NCBI GenBank assembly: GCA_937995595.1
Contig: CALKJW010000024.1
Location: 1-56,231, forward strand
DNA length: 56,231 bases
Source of the DNA: an uncultured Phycisphaerales bacterium
GTDB taxonomy: Bacteria > Planctomycetota > Phycisphaerae > Phycisphaerales > UBA1924
Direction: 5' to 3'
Below the pieces are notes generated by a model that saw only the letters and a list, made by a program, of their open reading frames with translations, ran no database searches and was not told the origin of the DNA. How positions within the stretch are numbered: the stretch's first letter is position 1; every line of letters begins with the position of its first letter. This document shows positions 12,669 to 19,364 of the stretch, one piece after another. The position numbers and the translations under genes were made by a program.

Positions 12669-14762
12669 GTGGCCTCCATCCCGTCCAACATCTCCCGCGT
12701 GCCGAACCTGCTCGCTTCGCAGGTGCTGCTGTCCAACCTGAACAGGACCAATCTCAGCCTGTTCCGCACGCAGGACCAGATGGCCACCGGCTCGCTCATC
12801 AACCGCTTCTCCGACGACTCCATCGGCGCGTCCGCCGTGTCGGTGCTGCGTCAGCGGCTGGCTCGCGGCGAGCAGCAACTCGGCAACCTCACGCAGGCCG
12901 ACGGCACGCTCAGCCTGCTCGACTCCTCGCTGGGCGACCTGTCCGGGCTGCTCGAACAGGCCCGCTCGATCGCATCCGAGCAGATCGGCGTCGGCTCCGA
13001 CACCCAGACCCGCGCGGCACAGGCGGTCGTCATCGACGGCATGATCCGCCAGATGTTCGACCTGGCCAACCGCCAGAGCAACGGCCTGTACCTCTTCGGC
13101 GGCAGCACCGCCTCGCGCCGGCCCATGCTCGAGGTCCCGCAGTTCGGCGGCTACCGCTACGTCGCGCGGGGCGAGGGGATGACCGCCGACCTGGGCCCCG
13201 CGTTCGGCGTGCCCGTCACGCTCGGCGGGAACAACGCCATCGGCGCGACATCGGCGCGGGTCCGCTCCACGCGCGACCTCGACCCCGAACTGACCGCCGA
13301 CACGCGACTGGCCGACCTTCGCGGCGCGCAGGGCCTGGGCGTTCGTTCCGGCGTGCTGAGTTTCGCCTTCAACGGCGGGCCCGCCGCGACCGTGGACCTC
13401 TCGGGCGCCGAGGACGTTCAGGACGTGCTCGATGCGCTCACCAGCGCGCTGCGCCAGTACGAAACCGATCACGGCGTGACGATCCTCGGCGCGGGCGGCG
13501 TCTCGCTCAACGGCGGCTCGCTCAGCATCGACGTGGTCTCGGGCGCGCCCGACCCGGACCCGCAACTCACCTTCGCCGATGTGTCCGGCGGCACGATCGC
13601 CGCGGACCTTGGCCTCTCGCAGTCGGCCTTCGAGAACACCGCGCCCGACGGCGCGGACCTCGACCCGCGCCTCACGTTCCTGACGCCGCTGAGCGCGCTG
13701 CCGGGCCTGACGCTGCCGATGGACGGCGTCCGCATCAAGTTCCAACTCGGGGCGAACACGGCGGTCCGCCAGGTGGACCTGTCCGGCGCTCAGACGATCG
13801 GCGACGTGCGGTCGCTGATCGAGGCCGCCGCGCCCGGCGTCCGCGTGCTCATCAACGAGAACGGCCGCGGCATCGACATCGTCAGCGAGGTCTCCGGCCC
13901 GGCCATGTCCATCGAGGAGATCGCCGGCGACCCCGACACCGCGACCGAAATGGGCATCCGCTCGCTCGACCTGGGCACGCTGGTGTCGGACTTCAACCAC
14001 GGCCGCGGCGTGCACATCGTGCACGGGTCGGTCGACCCGGTGACGGGCCTGCCCGACCCCACGCGCGACGTGGACTTCCGCATCACCCTCGGCAGCGGGC
14101 AGTCGTTCGACGTGGACCTGCGCCCGCAGGACCTGGTCAACGTCCAGTCGCTGCTCGATCGGATCAACGCGGCCTTCGCCGCGGCGGTGCTCGCGCCGCC
14201 CATCAACCCCGATGCGCCCCCGCTCGAGGACGGCGACTTCGAGGCGACGCTCACCGACGGGGCCAACGGCATCGCGTTTGTGCAGTCGTCGGCGCTCGCG
14301 GCCGACGGGCCCATCGCGGTGGTCGGCCGGAACAACTCCGGAGCGGCGGAGGACCTCGGGCTGTTGGCGGGCACGTATGACGCCGGAAGCGCAACTTTGG
14401 TCGCGCAAGATCGTGCATCGATCAAGGTGGACAACCTGTTCACCGCGCTGATCGAACTTCGCGAGGCGCTGCGGAGCGACAGCACGACTGGCATCACCTT
14501 TGCTGGAGAGCGACTGGAACGCGCGGTCAACCACCTGTCTCAGACGCGCGCCCTCGTGGGCGCGCACGCGAACCGGGTGGCCCGCGCGATCACGAGGCTT
14601 GAGGATTCACAGGTGCTCGACGAGAAACTCCGCTCGCAACTGCAGGACCTGGACTACGCCGAGGCGGCGACCAGGTTCACCATGCTGCAGACGCAGTTGC
14701 AGGCGGCGCTCGCGTCGGGCGCACAGACAAACCGGCTGAGTCTGCTCGACTTCCTCCGCTAG
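12669..14762 (+). CDS. flgL: Hook-associated protein 3, FlgL, greatly enlarged
   Basis: 697 residues from GTG 12669; typical FlgL is about 300. The conserved ends are present: 'NLNRTNLSLFRTQDQMATGS' and 'INRFSDDSIGASAV' at the N-terminus, and 'LRSQLQDLDYAEAATRFTML' with 'RLSLLDFLR' at the C-terminus, which form the D0/D1 coiled coils. Residues about 180-570 are a beta-rich insert with at least two flagellin-IN like units ('DVRSLIEAAAPGVRVLINEN', 'NVQSLLDRINAAF'), likely forming outer domains at the junction. Ribosome-binding site is weak. Separated from flgK by the octamer repeat. Confidence 0.9.
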   Translation: MASIPSNISRVPNLLASQVLLSNLNRTNLSLFRTQDQMATGSLINRFSDDSIGASAVSVLRQRLARGEQQLGNLTQADGTLSLLDSSLGDLSGLLEQARSIASEQIGVGSDTQTRAAQAVVIDGMIRQMFDLANRQSNGLYLFGGSTASRRPMLEVPQFGGYRYVARGEGMTADLGPAFGVPVTLGGNNAIGATSARVRSTRDLDPELTADTRLADLRGAQGLGVRSGVLSFAFNGGPAATVDLSGAEDVQDVLDALTSALRQYETDHGVTILGAGGVSLNGGSLSIDVVSGAPDPDPQLTFADVSGGTIAADLGLSQSAFENTAPDGADLDPRLTFLTPLSALPGLTLPMDGVRIKFQLGANTAVRQVDLSGAQTIGDVRSLIEAAAPGVRVLINENGRGIDIVSEVSGPAMSIEEIAGDPDTATEMGIRSLDLGTLVSDFNHGRGVHIVHGSVDPVTGLPDPTRDVDFRITLGSGQSFDVDLRPQDLVNVQSLLDRINAAFAAAVLAPPINPDAPPLEDGDFEATLTDGANGIAFVQSSALAADGPIAVVGRNNSGAAEDLGLLAGTYDAGSATLVAQDRASIKVDNLFTALIELREALRSDSTTGITFAGERLERAVNHLSQTRALVGAHANRVARAITRLEDSQVLDEKLRSQLQDLDYAEAATRFTMLQTQLQAALASGAQTNRLSLLDFLR

Positions 14763-14869
14763 AGGGCGGGGCGTCGGGCGGCATGGAAGGAGCCGCAAGA
14801 GGACCCTGCCCCGCACCGGCCGCGGCGGCAGGAGGGCAAGACAGGACGTCGCCCGGCGAGTGTCGCCGG

Positions 14870-14890
14870 GGCTGGTCCGGATGACTGGCC
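14870..14890 (+). promoter_or_regulatory. Candidate CsrA-binding stem-loop in the fliW leader
   Basis: Eight-pair stem (GGCTGGTC with GACTGGCC, including two G-U pairs) closing a CGGAU loop, 21 bases before the fliW ATG. GGA in a hairpin loop is the core of CsrA sites. This is the weakest of the four candidates because of the wobble pairs. Confidence 0.45.
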
Positions 14891-14911
14891 GGGGATTGCG
14901 GGAGCGCACCC

Positions 14912-15367
14912 ATGCATGTGCGGACGACAAGATTCGGAACGGTGGAGATCGCGGAGGACCGCGTGATCACCTTCCCCAAGGGCCTGTTGGGCTTTGCCGA
15001 CCAGCGTCGGTTCTGCCTGCTGGAACCCGCGGAGGACTCGGCGTTCTTCTGGCTGCAGTCGCTCGACGAGCCGGCCCTGGCTTTCGTGGTGACCGACCCG
15101 TCCTTCTTCGTGCCGGAGTATTCGGTTCCGATCCGGCAGGAGCAGATGGGCGAACTGGGCCTGGCGCGGCTCGAGGACGCGCAGGTGTTCGTGATCGTCA
15201 ACAAGGTCGAGCAGACCCTGACCGGGAACCTGCAGGGCCCCCTGGTGATCAACACCGTGTCGCGCACCGGCGAGCAACTGGTCCTGGCGGAGAAGCGCTG
15301 GCAGATGCGCCACCCGCTGGTAACGGTCGGCAAGCCGCACGCCGCGCCCCGCGCCATGTCCGCCTGA
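14912..15367 (+). CDS. fliW: Flagellar assembly factor FliW
   Basis: 151 residues. 'FGTVEIAEDRVITFPKGLLG' and 'FADQRRFCLLE' at the N-terminus, 'FWLQSLDEPALAFVVTDP' and 'LVINTVSRTGEQLVL' are family hallmarks. In Bacillus and Campylobacter FliW is a cytosolic protein that binds either flagellin or CsrA, and release from flagellin lets it antagonise CsrA, so flagellin translation tracks export. Here fliW is directly upstream of csrA and the flagellins, which fits that circuit. The start at 14912 has GGGAG upstream. Confidence 0.95.
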   Translation: MHVRTTRFGTVEIAEDRVITFPKGLLGFADQRRFCLLEPAEDSAFFWLQSLDEPALAFVVTDPSFFVPEYSVPIRQEQMGELGLARLEDAQVFVIVNKVEQTLTGNLQGPLVINTVSRTGEQLVLAEKRWQMRHPLVTVGKPHAAPRAMSA

Positions 15368-15432
15368 GTGTGTACGACCAGCGCCGCGCCGGGGCTGACC
15401 CCGCCGCGGCATGAACCAGAGAAGGGGAGGGG

Positions 15433-15456
15433 GGCCCGTTCAGGGAAGAACGGGCC
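15433..15456 (+). promoter_or_regulatory. Candidate CsrA-binding stem-loop in the csrA leader
   Basis: Perfect 9-bp stem (GGCCCGTTC with GAACGGGCC) closing a hexaloop AGGGAA that contains GGA, 53 bases before the csrA ATG. No T-tract follows, so it is not an intrinsic terminator for fliW. It would allow CsrA to repress its own translation. Confidence 0.6.
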
Positions 15457-15508
15457 GCGGGTCTCGTTGCCCTTTCACCGAGCCACGCACCGAGGAAGGA
15501 GCCGATCC

Positions 15509-15841
15509 ATGCTGGTCCTTTCCCGTCAGCGCGACGAAACGATCATGATCGGCGACGACGTGGAGATCACCGTCGTCGACATCCGAGGGGACAAGGTCCG
15601 CCTCGGGATCACCGCGCCGACGCGCATCGCCGTCCACCGCAAAGAGGTCTACGAGGCCATCAAGGCCGAGAACCAGCGCGCCGCGCAACTCTCGGGGGCC
15701 GACGCCGACCTCCTGCGCCGACGGCTCACCGGGCCTTCGACGCCCCTGCCCAGGCCGCACCTGGCCCCGGCGGCGCGCCTCCGCCCGACCGACAACCCCG
15801 CCCTGCCCCACCACGGGCTGGGCGACGCCAAGACCGCCTGA
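15509..15841 (+). CDS. csrA: Carbon storage / translational regulator CsrA with long C-terminal tail
   Basis: 110 residues from ATG 15509 with GAGGAAGGA upstream. Residues 1-60 are a normal CsrA: 'MLVLSRQRDETIMIGDDVEI', 'RLGITAPTRIAVHRKEVYEA'. The RNA-contact residues L4 and R44-equivalent (in 'AVHRKEV') are kept. CsrA dimers bind GGA motifs in mRNA leaders and block ribosome access. The tail of about 48 residues, Pro/Ala/Leu rich, exceeds the usual 61-75 residue protein. Its own leader and those of the two downstream flagellin genes contain hairpins with GGA loops. Confidence 0.95.
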   Translation: MLVLSRQRDETIMIGDDVEITVVDIRGDKVRLGITAPTRIAVHRKEVYEAIKAENQRAAQLSGADADLLRRRLTGPSTPLPRPHLAPAARLRPTDNPALPHHGLGDAKTA

Positions 15842-15858
15842 CCACCCTTCAACCCCGC

Positions 15859-15878
15859 GCGCCCGATGGATCGGGCGC
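15859..15878 (+). promoter_or_regulatory. Candidate CsrA-binding stem-loop in the first flagellin leader
   Basis: Perfect 8-bp stem (GCGCCCGA with TCGGGCGC) closing a TGGA tetraloop, 68 bases before the flagellin ATG. With the GGA in the ribosome-binding site at 15932-15940 it gives two sites, as in the B. subtilis hag leader. Confidence 0.6.
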
Positions 15879-15931
15879 CACGACGCGAACGCAGAGTCCG
15901 AAACGACCCCCGAACGCCACCTCGGCCTCAA

Positions 15932-15940
15932 TCACGGAGG
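15932..15940 (+). promoter_or_regulatory. Ribosome-binding site of first flagellin, possible CsrA site
   Basis: TCACGGAGG, six bases before the ATG at 15947. GGAGG is the Shine-Dalgarno; the CACGGA part resembles the CsrA consensus (ACARGGA). The identical nine-base word precedes the second flagellin. Confidence 0.6.
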
Positions 15941-15946
15941 ATTGCC

Positions 15947-17497
15947 ATGTCGAGGATCAACTCGAACGTCCCGAGTCTGATCGCCCGGACCAACCTGTCG
16001 CGGGCCAACCAGGACCTTGAGGTCCGGCTCCAGCGCCTGGCCACCGGTCTGAAGATCAACCGCGGGGCGGACAACCCCGCCGGGCTGATCGTCTCCGAGC
16101 GCCTCCGCTCCGAGATCTCCGGCCTGAACCAGGCGGTGAACAACTCGCAGCGGGCCTCGTCGGTCATCGCGACCACGGAGGGCGCGCTGGCCGAGATCGC
16201 CGACCTGCTCAACTCCATCCGCGGGCTGGTCGTCGAGGCCGCCAACACCGGCGCCATCTCCGCCGCGGAGCGGCAGGCCAACCAGTTGCAGATCGACTCG
16301 GCGATCGACACGATCACCCGGATCAGCAACAGCGCGAGTTTCGGCGGGCTGAAACTGCTCAACGGCTCGCTGGACTACGTGACCAGCGGCCTGGACGGCA
16401 GCGCGATCAACAAGGCCACGATCTTCGGGGCCAACTTCGCCGGCAGGCCGCAGATCCAGGTCGACGTCAACGTCATCGCCTCGGCCCAGACCGCCGCGCT
16501 GTTCCTCTCCGCGTCCAACGCGGGCAGCCCGGTCGCGCCGGGCCGGTTCGCCAGCACGACGACCCTCGAGATCGCCGGCCCGCTGGGCGTGCAGGTGCTC
16601 GAGATCCTGTCGGGCCAGTCGCTGGCCGACGTGGTCCGCGCGATCAACGCCTTCACGCAGGCCACCGGCATCTCCGCGTCGCTGCTCAACCCATCCAACC
16701 CGGCCTCGGGCATGCGGTTCAACTCCCAGGGCTTCGGGTCCAACGCCTTCGTCTCGGTGCGCCGCCTGAACGAGCCCTCCGGCGGCGGGTTCTTCCGCAC
16801 CTTCTCCATCGCCTCCAACGGCGCGGTCCCCGCGACGCCCTCGTTCTCCGACACGGCGTTCGTCTCCGCGCTCACCGCGGCCAACCGCGACACCGGGCGC
16901 GACGTCAACGCGATCGTCAACGGCGCGCTGGCCAACGGCAACGGCCTGAAACTCAGCCTGCAGAACCAGACGGCCATCTCGCTGGAACTGCAGCTGGGCT
17001 CGACGTTCGCCACCACCAACGGCTCGACCTCCACGTTCTACATCACCGGCGGCGGCGCGCTCTACCAGCTCGGCGGGCAGATCAACACCAGCCAGCAGAC
17101 CAACATCGGCATCCAGTCCATGGCCGCGTCGCGACTGGGCGGCACGCTGCTCAACGGGCAACTGCAGTTCCTCAGTTCGCTCCGCTCGGGCGGCGCCAAC
17201 GACCTGAACAGCAGGCAGTTCCAGAACGCCTCGGCGATCCTGGACACGTCGATCGACGAGGTCTCGACGCTCCGCGGGCGCCTCGGCGCGTTCGAGCGCA
17301 ACACGCTCGAGACCAACGTGCGCTCGCTCAGCACCGCGATCGAGAACCTCACCGCCAGCGAGTCGCGCATCCGCGACGCGGACTTCGCCGAGGAGACCAG
17401 CCGCCTGACGCGCTCGCAGATCCTCTCCAGCGCCAGCACGTCCATCCTCTCGCTGGCCAACCAGCAGAGCCAGCAGGTGCTCCAGTTGCTCGGGTAG
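15947..17497 (+). CDS. Flagellin 1
   Basis: 516 residues. N-terminal D0/D1: 'MSRINSNVPSLIARTNL', 'RLATGLKINRGADNPAGLI', 'SERLRSEISGLNQAVNNSQR'. C-terminal D1/D0: 'LRGRLGAFERNTLETNVRS', 'ASESRIRDADFAEETSRLTR', 'ILSLANQQSQQVLQLLG'. These form the filament core. The middle (about 170-400) is a variable surface region with a flagellin-IN type motif ('SLADVVRAINAFTQATGISA'). The ATG at 15947 follows TCACGGAGG. A terminator at 17534-17574 separates it from the second flagellin. fliC or hag would be the usual symbol; orthology between paralogues is unclear. Confidence 0.95.
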   Translation: MSRINSNVPSLIARTNLSRANQDLEVRLQRLATGLKINRGADNPAGLIVSERLRSEISGLNQAVNNSQRASSVIATTEGALAEIADLLNSIRGLVVEAANTGAISAAERQANQLQIDSAIDTITRISNSASFGGLKLLNGSLDYVTSGLDGSAINKATIFGANFAGRPQIQVDVNVIASAQTAALFLSASNAGSPVAPGRFASTTTLEIAGPLGVQVLEILSGQSLADVVRAINAFTQATGISASLLNPSNPASGMRFNSQGFGSNAFVSVRRLNEPSGGGFFRTFSIASNGAVPATPSFSDTAFVSALTAANRDTGRDVNAIVNGALANGNGLKLSLQNQTAISLELQLGSTFATTNGSTSTFYITGGGALYQLGGQINTSQQTNIGIQSMAASRLGGTLLNGQLQFLSSLRSGGANDLNSRQFQNASAILDTSIDEVSTLRGRLGAFERNTLETNVRSLSTAIENLTASESRIRDADFAEETSRLTRSQILSSASTSILSLANQQSQQVLQLLG

Positions 17498-17533
17498 TCC
17501 CACGGCAGGCCCGCACCAGTCCAGCACAGCACG

Positions 17534-17574
17534 CGCCGGCCCCGACGCACCCCGCGTCCGGGCCGGCGTTGTTT
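17534..17574 (+). terminator. Terminator after flagellin 1
   Basis: Nine-bp stem CGCCGGCCC / GGGCCGGCG with a 17-base loop, followed by TTGTTTA. It lies 36 bases after the flagellin 1 stop, so flagellin 2 probably has its own promoter in 17575-17690. Confidence 0.65.
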
Positions 17575-17694
17575 ATCGGACCAGCACCGCAAATTCCGGC
17601 TGAACGTTGCAGACGTGCGCTCAACCCGCCCCCTCGACCCTCCGATTCTGTCCGTGCACGCCCGTCCCGAAAGGGGGGCGGGCTGGCAACTCGG

Positions 17695-17714
17695 GCCCGG
17701 TACGGATACCGGGC
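17695..17714 (+). promoter_or_regulatory. Candidate CsrA-binding stem-loop in the second flagellin leader
   Basis: Perfect 8-bp stem (GCCCGGTA with TACCGGGC) closing a CGGA tetraloop. The strand around the loop reads UACGGAUA, close to the CsrA consensus. It is 132 bases before the flagellin ATG. Confidence 0.6.
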
Positions 17715-17828
17715 AGGGCCCCCAAGCCGTGTCGGCCATGGAGCCCGCACAGTCGCCGCCAGGGAAGCGGCCGGACCTCTCGCACGGGGGTCCAGGCGTT
17801 CCTCGCAGCACGAGACGCCGGTTCGAGT

Positions 17829-17837
17829 TCACGGAGG
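17829..17837 (+). promoter_or_regulatory. Ribosome-binding site of second flagellin, possible CsrA site
   Basis: TCACGGAGG, nine bases before the ATG at 17847, the same word as in front of flagellin 1 although the two leaders otherwise share little sequence. Confidence 0.6.
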
Positions 17838-17846
17838 GCACGTTCG

Positions 17847-19364
17847 ATGAGCCGCATCAACAACAACATCCAGTCTCTGATCGCGCAGCGCGTTCTGACC
17901 GCCAACAACTTCTCCCTGAGCCAGTCGCTCGAGCGGCTGAGCACCGGTCTGCGGATCAACCGCGGCAAGGACGACCCGGCGGGTCTGATTGCCTCGGAGA
18001 ACCTCCGCTCGGAGAAGGCGTCGCTGAACGCGGCGATCAACAACGCCGAGCGCGCCGACCAGGTCGCCAACATCGCCGAGGGCGGTCTGCAGGAGATCTC
18101 CAGCCTGCTGATCGACCTGCAGGGCCTCGTGACGGCCGCGGCCAACGGCGCCGGCCTGTCCGTCCAGGAGAAGCAGGCGAACCAGCTGCAGATCGACTCG
18201 ATCCTGCAGACCATCGACCGCATCTCGGGCGCGACGGCCTTCCAGGGCAAGAAACTGCTCAACGGCAACCTCGACTACACGACTTCCTCGGTCAACGCCG
18301 GCGTGACCGACTTCCGCGTCAACGGCGCGAAACTGGCCTTCGGCGGCAACATCGAAGTGCAGGCGGTCATCACGACCTCGGCCCAGCAGGCCGGCCTGTT
18401 CCTCTCGCTCGGCGGCCCGCTGAACCTCAACGGCGGCGTGAACTCCGCGTTCACGATCGAGGTCACCGGCGCGCTCGGCTCGCGCGAACTCTCGTTCGCC
18501 TCGGGCACGACGATCTCGGCCATCGTCAACGCGATCAACACCTTCACCGCCGTCACGGGCGTGCAGGCCGTCGCCTCGGGCACCACGGGCATCCGCCTGG
18601 AGTCCCAGCAGTTCGGCTCCAACGCCTTCGTCTCGACGCGCATCGTGAACCCCGCCGACATCCAGGGCACGGGCGTGGGCATCTTCCGCCTGAACAACAC
18701 CAACTTCAACACCGCCGATGCGTCGTCGGTGGTGGCGTTCAACGCCTCGGCCGCCCGCAACGGCGTCCGTGACGTCGGCCAGGACATCGTCGCCACGATC
18801 AACGGCGTCGCCGCGACCGCCAACGGCAAGACCGCCCGCATCAACACCGACTTCCTCGACGTCGAGATCACCTTCAACAGCAGCACCGCGCAGCAGCGCG
18901 GCGACCTGACGGTGTTCAACATCACCGGCGGCGGCGCCGACTTCCAGTTGGCCCCGAACGTGGACATCGCCGGCAAGGTGGCCCTCGGCATCGCCGACGT
19001 CTCCACCCGCAAGCTGGGCAACTCGACGCTGGGCTACCTGTCCGACCTCGCTTCGGGCAAGGCCTTCAACATCGTCAGCGGCGACCAGTCCGCCGCCCAG
19101 CGCGTGGTCTCCGAGGCCATCGACGCGATCTCCGCGATCCGCGGGCGTCTGGGCGCGTTCCAGAAGAACACGGTCGGCGCGACCATCCGCAACCTGAACG
19201 TGTCGATCGAGAACACGACCGCCGCCGAGTCGGTCATCCGCGACACCAACTTCGCCGCCGAGACCGCCGCCCTGACCCGCAACCAGATCCTGGTGCAGGC
19301 CTCGACCAACATCCTCTCGCTGGCCAACAGCCAGCCGCAGGCCGCCCTGCAGTTGCTCGGCTGA
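17847..19364 (+). CDS. Flagellin 2
   Basis: 505 residues, a paralogue of the preceding gene. 'MSRINNNIQSLIAQRVLTAN', 'RLSTGLRINRGKDDPAGLIA' and 'SENLRSEKASLNAAINNAER' at the N-terminus; 'RGRLGAFQKNTVGATIRNL', 'AAESVIRDTNFAAETAALTR' and 'ILSLANSQPQAALQLLG' at the C-terminus. The central domain keeps the same plan as flagellin 1 ('FNITGGGADFQL' corresponds to 'FYITGGGALYQL') but diverges strongly. It has its own long leader and its own terminator, so the two subunits can be expressed in different amounts. Confidence 0.95.
   Translation: MSRINNNIQSLIAQRVLTANNFSLSQSLERLSTGLRINRGKDDPAGLIASENLRSEKASLNAAINNAERADQVANIAEGGLQEISSLLIDLQGLVTAAANGAGLSVQEKQANQLQIDSILQTIDRISGATAFQGKKLLNGNLDYTTSSVNAGVTDFRVNGAKLAFGGNIEVQAVITTSAQQAGLFLSLGGPLNLNGGVNSAFTIEVTGALGSRELSFASGTTISAIVNAINTFTAVTGVQAVASGTTGIRLESQQFGSNAFVSTRIVNPADIQGTGVGIFRLNNTNFNTADASSVVAFNASAARNGVRDVGQDIVATINGVAATANGKTARINTDFLDVEITFNSSTAQQRGDLTVFNITGGGADFQLAPNVDIAGKVALGIADVSTRKLGNSTLGYLSDLASGKAFNIVSGDQSAAQRVVSEAIDAISAIRGRLGAFQKNTVGATIRNLNVSIENTTAAESVIRDTNFAAETAALTRNQILVQASTNILSLANSQPQAALQLLG

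Follow-up and report, generated by a model that had tools for sequence, protein, structure and literature searches.

In Campylobacter jejuni, the leader of the flagellin gene flaA carries two stem-loops with ANGGA in their loops, the second lying on the ribosome-binding site, and CsrA has been placed on this leader by footprinting and gel shift (PMC4894983). In Bacillus subtilis, CsrA represses flagellin through two sites in the hag leader, one of which overlaps the Shine-Dalgarno sequence (SD), and FliW binds the extended C terminus of CsrA (PMC7652899). Our analysis concerns fliW, csrA and two flagellin genes in a 56,231-nucleotide (nt) stretch of DNA (the window; contig CALKJW010000024.1 of assembly GCA_937995595.1, positions 1 to 56,231) from an uncultured Phycisphaerales bacterium, compared with 60 stretches from 59 relatives (61 stretches with the window added). 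The leaders of these genes hold a conserved and real set of presumed CsrA sites, and the locus is, as judged from sequence, a variant of the FliW-CsrA-flagellin system. The interpretation we favour, with a probability of roughly 0.8, is a FliW-CsrA-flagellin homeostasis module of the Phycisphaerales (flgL-fliW-csrA-fla1-fla2) in which CsrA would also act on its own leader and on the fliW leader of most relatives.

The gene neighbourhood in B. subtilis is flgL-fliW-csrA as well, and the locus described here shares with that organism both the two flagellin-leader sites and the extended C terminus of CsrA. Unlike in B. subtilis, csrA here and, in the relatives, fliW have leaders of their own with GGA hairpins; to our knowledge no CsrA sites are known on fliW or csrA in the Bacillus and Campylobacter versions of the system. 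The likeness to C. jejuni flaA extends to the plan of two ANGGA sites, to hexaloops of the CANGGANG type, which have been described for high-affinity CsrA/RsmE sites, and to the presence of both fliW and csrA, but the two GGAs of flaA are separated by 21 nt within a leader of 45 nt (PMC4894983), whereas about 65 nt lie between the two flagellin 1 sites here, the upstream one being poorly conserved. Escherichia coli CsrA represses its own translation (PMC7652899), which the autoregulatory-type sites on csrA recall, but its antagonists are the small RNAs CsrB/C rather than FliW, whereas here such sites occur within a FliW system. A term search of the main text of PMC4894983 gave no match for csrA or fliW leaders or autoregulation in Campylobacter, a term search of PMC6529632 was likewise without a match, and no description of CsrA sites on fliW was found among the titles and abstract openings of the literature searched. 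On the strength of gene content, Planctomycetes were named as a group that possibly uses FliW (PMC4682653), csrA of a Pirellula is mentioned as having a sigma-54 promoter (PMC12316311), and PMC11607428 only touches on these groups. The sequence-only reading from which this work started knew of no description of the circuit in Phycisphaerae, and that statement holds for the literature searched, largely open papers with subscription journals mostly outside it, in which no leader analysis involving CsrA or FliW was found for Planctomycetes or Phycisphaerae.

The best-conserved presumed CsrA site, and the strongest of the set, is a hairpin enclosing the SD of flagellin 1 that the sequence-only reading had overlooked. 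This hairpin, CAATC[ACGGAG]GATTG at 15929-15944 (+ strand, as are all window features below unless indicated), lies directly before the start codon at 15947, has a predicted pairing probability of 0.99 and presents a full CANGGANG hexaloop, that is, ANGGAN in a six-base apical loop closed by a C-G pair (C ACGGAG G). When the SD was located via GGAGG, this motif was present in all 61 flagellin 1 leaders (60 of the order plus L180, from the same class), each time with an A two bases before GGA. After removal of near copies and some other rows (61 minus L066, L107, L111, L119, L123, L219, L220 and L221, of which L219-L221 are among the poorly pairing rows), 44 of the 53 SD hairpins had at least five contiguous pairs. 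Two-sided changes were seen at 4 of the 6 pairs, a number equalled in 17 of 500 shuffles, and the covariation score was 0.201 against 0.124 for shuffled alignments (reached by 0/500), with slid registers giving no more than 0.083. The exact pattern CAATCANGGAGGATTG occurs a single time in each of 43 of the 61 genomes (reversed control, 0), and by-eye comparison with the flagellin positions placed all 43 directly upstream of a flagellin gene. Within 790 kb made up of the window and a sample of its genome, this was the sole ANGGAG-hexaloop hairpin of at least five Watson-Crick pairs beside a start codon. As expected of a homeostasis system, then, a CsrA-type site overlaps the flagellin SD and is conserved among relatives.

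The hairpins named by the sequence-only reading, one each in the leaders of fliW, csrA, flagellin 1 and flagellin 2, are all present in the sequence with the positions and loops it gave, and the three described as perfect 8-9 bp stems are indeed free of G-U pairs. These are the csrA leader hairpin GGCCCGTTC[AGGGAA]GAACGGGCC (15433-15456, nine Watson-Crick pairs), the flagellin 1 upstream hairpin GCGCCCGA[TGGA]TCGGGCGC (15859-15878, eight) and the flagellin 2 upstream hairpin GCCCGGTA[CGGA]TACCGGGC (17695-17714, eight), with predicted pairing probabilities in the full leaders of 1.00, 0.96 and 0.97, respectively. The csrA hairpin, a presumed CsrA site, takes the complete CANGGANG form (CAGGGAAG; C AGGGAA G), and those at 17695 and 15859 agree with it in part because their ANGGAU hexaloops (ACGGAU in flagellin 2) are closed by U-A and G-C. 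The csrA SD, AGGAAGGAG at 15493-15501, read from the sequence, contains GGA twice in tandem and is presumed to be a second, SD-type site; the tandem is visible by eye in many relatives. Flagellin 2 has another leader hairpin, GCCGC[CAGGGAA]GCGGC (17755-17771, pairing probability 0.83), which had also been overlooked, followed by a presumed SD site, ACGGAGGG at 17831-17838, likewise read from the sequence. The flagellin 2 upstream hairpins of the relatives use other stems.

Such hairpins could in principle be chance products of GC-rich intergenic DNA, since GC-rich leaders yield many stems and even the rest of the loci gives 0.087 per kb, yet the comparisons leave this explanation with a negligible probability. 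A scan for GGA hairpins (stem of at least 7, no G-U, a 4-6 base loop containing GGA) found three on the + strand of the window, all in these leaders, and two on the - strand. GGA-loop hairpins with a stem of at least 8 and no G-U number 9 over both strands of 373 kb sampled from this genome (0.012 per kb), which predicts 0.009 for four leaders totalling 744 nt; three are present, those of csrA, flagellin 1 and flagellin 2. In the genus-collapsed leaders of the order, with TCC loops as the antisense control and dinucleotide shuffles giving the mean in brackets, GGA and TCC loops on stems of at least 7 numbered 20 vs 0 (0.9) for fliW (n=55), 22 vs 0 (0.6) for csrA (n=50), 8 vs 0 (0.2) for flagellin 1 (n=46) and 12 vs 1 (0.6) for flagellin 2 (n=39). 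Hairpin density in the relatives' leaders, the window being excluded from this count, was 1.78 per kb in sense and 0.20 in antisense orientation, compared with 0.087 and 0.085 outside the leaders (863 kb of the same loci). L066 (same genus as the window) and L107, L111, L119 and L123 (genus of L103) were dropped from the GGA/TCC test, the leader densities, the presence and ANGGA counts, the pairing-probability counts and the strong-hairpin GGA shares; the GGA/TCC test also dropped leaders below 40 nt (three csrA leaders from the short-gap aflagellates L114, L118 and L122, and two of flagellin 1), and the presence and ANGGA counts took in five genomes of the second set (L219, L222-L225) but not L220 and L221. 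Together the near-zero TCC control, the shuffles, the same-genome background, the loop base preference and the covariation refute chance for the set as a whole, and it may apply only to the single fliW hairpin at 14870-14890.

The loops themselves carry a signature. Among strong hairpins, GGA occupies the loop in 20/33 for fliW, 23/31 for csrA, 8/17 for flagellin 1 and 12/48 for flagellin 2, against 127/3254 in the genome sample. In non-SD hairpins an A stands two bases before GGA in 25/35 for csrA, 15/24 for flagellin 2, 4/7 for flagellin 1 and 12/37 for fliW, the background being 26/344, an enrichment that we read as the ANGGA preference of CsrA; genera differ in their stems yet share the loop motif. 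Pairing probabilities in the full leaders exceeded 0.5 in 32/35 (fliW), 27/29 (csrA), 39/48 (flagellin 1) and 16/24 (flagellin 2) cases. SD sequences hold GGA, often with an A before it, for ribosome binding anyway, and one could suppose that no CsrA is involved, the flagellin 1 hairpin setting SD accessibility and the others serving as processing, stability or attenuation elements. To this improbable account belong the GGA of the SDs, which ribosome binding would lead one to expect, and the fliW hairpin near -60, which is often retained without GGA (GTG in the window, ATG in L066, and others); the GGA shares of the fliW and csrA hairpins over background speak against it, and a generic stem would have no need of the A enrichment in non-SD hairpins. 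Terminators were ruled out, as no counted non-SD leader hairpin has at least five T in the next 8 bases, and hence none has the T-run that would follow one; on the + strand between 14600 and 17900 a single, weak terminator-like site was seen, at 17554-17569, and a count over the two strands found 2 where shuffles average 1.4. The control by CsrA that had been proposed for csrA and the flagellins is therefore well supported by comparison (23/31 GGA loops and 0/50 TCC loops in csrA leaders, A in 25/35 against 26/344, and paired changes in the SD hairpin), at the level of sequence.

The proteins of the locus fit this picture. FliW (14912-15367), a flagellin-binding CsrA antagonist by family, scored 125 bits against Pfam FliW (PF02623, cut-off 25) and matched 5dmb_A with an E value of 2.2e-21; in the closest named record, a genome bin from the Phycisphaeraceae, FliW is 96% identical. 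CsrA (15509-15841, 110 aa, with an extended C terminus) scored 85.6 bits against PF02599 (cut-off 27), and its best match of solved structure is 5dmb_D, from an entry that contains CsrA and FliW together. It has L4 and R44, which we take to be RNA-binding residues, and N55, presumably the residue used by FliW; L4 and R44 occur in 58/58 CsrA1 copies of the first set (window included) and N55 in 57/58, the sole copy without it being that of the aflagellate G050 (L114). Flagellin 1 (15947-17497) and flagellin 2 (17847-19364) both have Flagellin_N (107 and 95.8 bits) and Flagellin_C (70 and 61.6 bits) domains. Upstream of the module lies flgL (12669-14762), the hook-filament junction protein gene, named from its family (Flagellin_N and Flagellin_C), its place and synteny; flgK is also on the + strand of the window, and an Rfam scan of the window returned four tRNAs and nothing else. 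Across 61 genomes of the order, fliW was found in 60, CsrA in 61 and flagellin in 56, and the order flgL-fliW-csrA-flagellin is kept in 52 of the 61 stretches, the other nine comprising five without flagellin and four interrupted by contig ends.

In 54/61 genomes, that of the window among them (G000:C30:39131-39295), CsrA is matched a second time, and this raises the unlikely alternative that the sites are genuine CsrA-type sites read mainly by a FliW-insensitive paralogue, CsrA2, leaving no gating by FliW. The 17 copies of CsrA2 examined keep the H/NRRE stretch and, by eye, have neither N55 nor the C-terminal extension, which counts for this alternative. The sites, however, concentrate on genes of the fliW-csrA locus, whose own CsrA1 has N55 in nearly every copy, and CsrA2 matches score lower, at about 47-57 bits (67.7 in one copy at a contig end), whereas CsrA1 reaches 75-93. 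Moreover, CsrA is matched only once in five of the six f5 genomes, and four of these (G040, G044, G052 and G060) keep the flagellin 1 SD hairpin, the fifth having no flagellin. The CsrA2 gene of the window genome is on the - strand of its contig (L179), 16 copies from relatives are in L246-L264, and close to its N terminus the protein has an insertion; the SD of the gene sits, in several genomes, inside a short hairpin, e.g. GGAC[TGGAG]GTCC. In G056 one open reading frame (L265:981-1457, + strand; 158 aa from the first start codon) has two weak CsrA matches and is possibly a fused or degenerate double CsrA.

Within the FliW-gated module that we favour, and building on the hairpins, their conservation and loop preference, the synteny, the family assignments of the proteins and the key residues of CsrA, all of which are established, the mechanism would run as follows. 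A CsrA dimer, with its two RNA sites, would bind two GGAs, one in the loop of an upstream hairpin and one in the SD, and ribosome entry on the flagellin mRNA would be blocked; FliW free of unexported flagellin would bind CsrA and lift the block. Repression of flagellin by CsrA and its relief by FliW should take place here by analogy with Campylobacter flaA and Bacillus hag. The csrA-leader hairpin and the tandem GGA of the csrA SD would similarly serve self-repression of csrA, and the fliW leader hairpin of the relatives would place the antagonist under co-repression by CsrA. Because CsrA-type hairpins stand in the csrA leader, here and in most flagellated relatives, and in the fliW leader of most relatives, CsrA probably holds down the synthesis of both itself and its antagonist.

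Several observations weigh against this interpretation. That CsrA binds these leaders, that it represses translation and that FliW and flagellin switch partners are inferred from sequence and analogy, and the hairpins are presumed to lie in the message. Promoters could not be placed because sigma patterns are nearly absent from the leaders: the strict sigma-54 pattern was found in 3/53 flagellin 1, 0/60 fliW, 0/58 csrA and 0/44 flagellin 2 leaders, the strict sigma-28 pattern in no leader of the four genes, and looser versions in between 0 and 4 leaders for each gene; no sigma-70-like promoter was found. CsrA ligands from SELEX mostly have four or fewer contiguous pairs (PMC7652899), and by that measure the stems of 8-9 bp are unusually stable. 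The conservation in relatives that could be hoped for is found for the csrA, fliW and flagellin 1 SD hairpins but not for the flagellin 1 upstream hairpin at 15859, since just 7 of the 53 flagellin 1 leaders, window included, contain an upstream hairpin of at least 6 bp with GGA in its loop. Even the better-kept sites have gaps: 9/53 flagellin 1 SD hairpins have fewer than five contiguous pairs, 22/53 flagellated genomes lack a csrA-leader GGA hairpin of at least 6 bp (31/53 have one, including the window genome), and 23/44 flagellin 2 leaders are without a non-SD GGA hairpin (21/44 have one of at least 6 bp). Of 27 further flagellin leaders examined, 12 have any GGA hairpin; setting aside five that belong to the main locus but lie on split contigs (L268, L269) leaves 9 of 22. 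The control region, 150 nt before flgL in 49 loci, yielded only six strong hairpins, two of them with GGA. Lastly, the fliW hairpin at 14870-14890 has a pairing probability of 0.00 in the full fliW leader, so that three of the four stem-loops claimed for this genome stand and that of fliW probably does not.

This fliW hairpin, GGCTGGTC[CGGAT]GACTGGCC, has eight pairs, two of them G-U, and its pentaloop CGGAU lacks the A of a CANGGANG hexaloop; it probably does not form. In shorter RNAs its probability was 0.26, 0.02 and 0.81 for starts at 14821, 14851 and 14867, respectively. It competes with other pairings, among them the hairpin CCCGGCGA[GTG]TCGCCGGG at 14852-14870, with which it has base 14870 in common. 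That hairpin lies at -60 of fliW, its loop at -52 being the median loop position of the relatives' fliW GGA hairpins, and is therefore their positional counterpart, here without GGA. In a tally of the -60 loops from which only the L103-genus copies were dropped, the genus-mate L066 has ATG, and the hairpin is often retained without GGA, which counts against a simple story. A short hairpin, TGCG[GGAG]CGCA at 14897-14908, is predicted to hold the fliW SD, with a pairing probability of 0.80-0.82 for RNA starts at 14821 or 14851, 0.00 at 14791 and 0.54 at 14867. Among the relatives, 37 of 60 fliW leaders have a GGA hairpin. Control of fliW by CsrA is thus plausible from the relatives, where the fliW GGA site probably holds, while the hairpin named in this genome is doubtful and forms the weak link of the set.

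Five genomes of the order (G042, G048, G050, G054 and G058; L106, L112, L114, L118 and L122) have fliW and csrA, although no flagellin N-domain and no rod/hook N-domain was found in them; two of the five keep a FlhA-family gene. By comparison, some non-flagellated Campylobacter are without csrA and fliW (PMC4894983). The csrA-leader hairpin is found in 0/5 of these aflagellates against 31/53 flagellated genomes (Fisher p 0.018), a weak contrast, since a single family accounts for four of the five and fliW and csrA lie only 12-88 nt apart in these genomes. In such order-mates FliW may do something else. A closed circuit, in which CsrA binds the flagellin, csrA and fliW leaders alike and the flagella-losing lineages keep fliW-csrA without the csrA-leader hairpin, FliW there answering something besides flagellin, is a tentative proposal to which we give somewhat less than even odds.

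In a sample of the phylum, fliW was found in 58 of 195 genomes, 20 of them within the order; outside it, flagellin accompanies fliW in 37 of 38 genomes (the exception being G211). A GGA hairpin is present in 9/18 flagellin leaders outside the order, including SD hairpins such as GAAATC[AAGGAG]GATTTC (L205, L209), and in 1/36 csrA leaders (L180, of the same class); the flagellin sites are therefore wider than the order. The fliW-csrA gap is below 100 nt in 27 of those 36, and only L180 among the nine with longer gaps has a hairpin. The csrA-leader site, by contrast, seems to have been added in the order and its close relatives. Five genomes of the same class but another family (G160, G168, G187, G206 and G218) have flagellins with no FliW found, and seemingly manage without the checkpoint; a planctomycete outside the order (L214; G223, contig C237) has three consecutive fliW matches before csrA. 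In G023 (L266, L267), from the same family as the window genome, there was no fliW match and only a CsrA2-like one, and the two flagellins examined have no SD hairpin; this absence may be an assembly gap, because L267 reaches a contig end and L266 starts about 1.4 kb from one.

The presumed sites described here would extend the FliW-CsrA checkpoint to a phylum for which only gene-content statements have been found so far, and the SD hairpin appears specific enough to identify whichever flagellin gene comes first in the locus. With csrA and fliW themselves under feedback, the switch would respond differently, the level of CsrA being buffered and its antagonist co-repressed, and the relatives in which fliW and csrA persist without flagella would offer a natural test of FliW function in the absence of flagellin.

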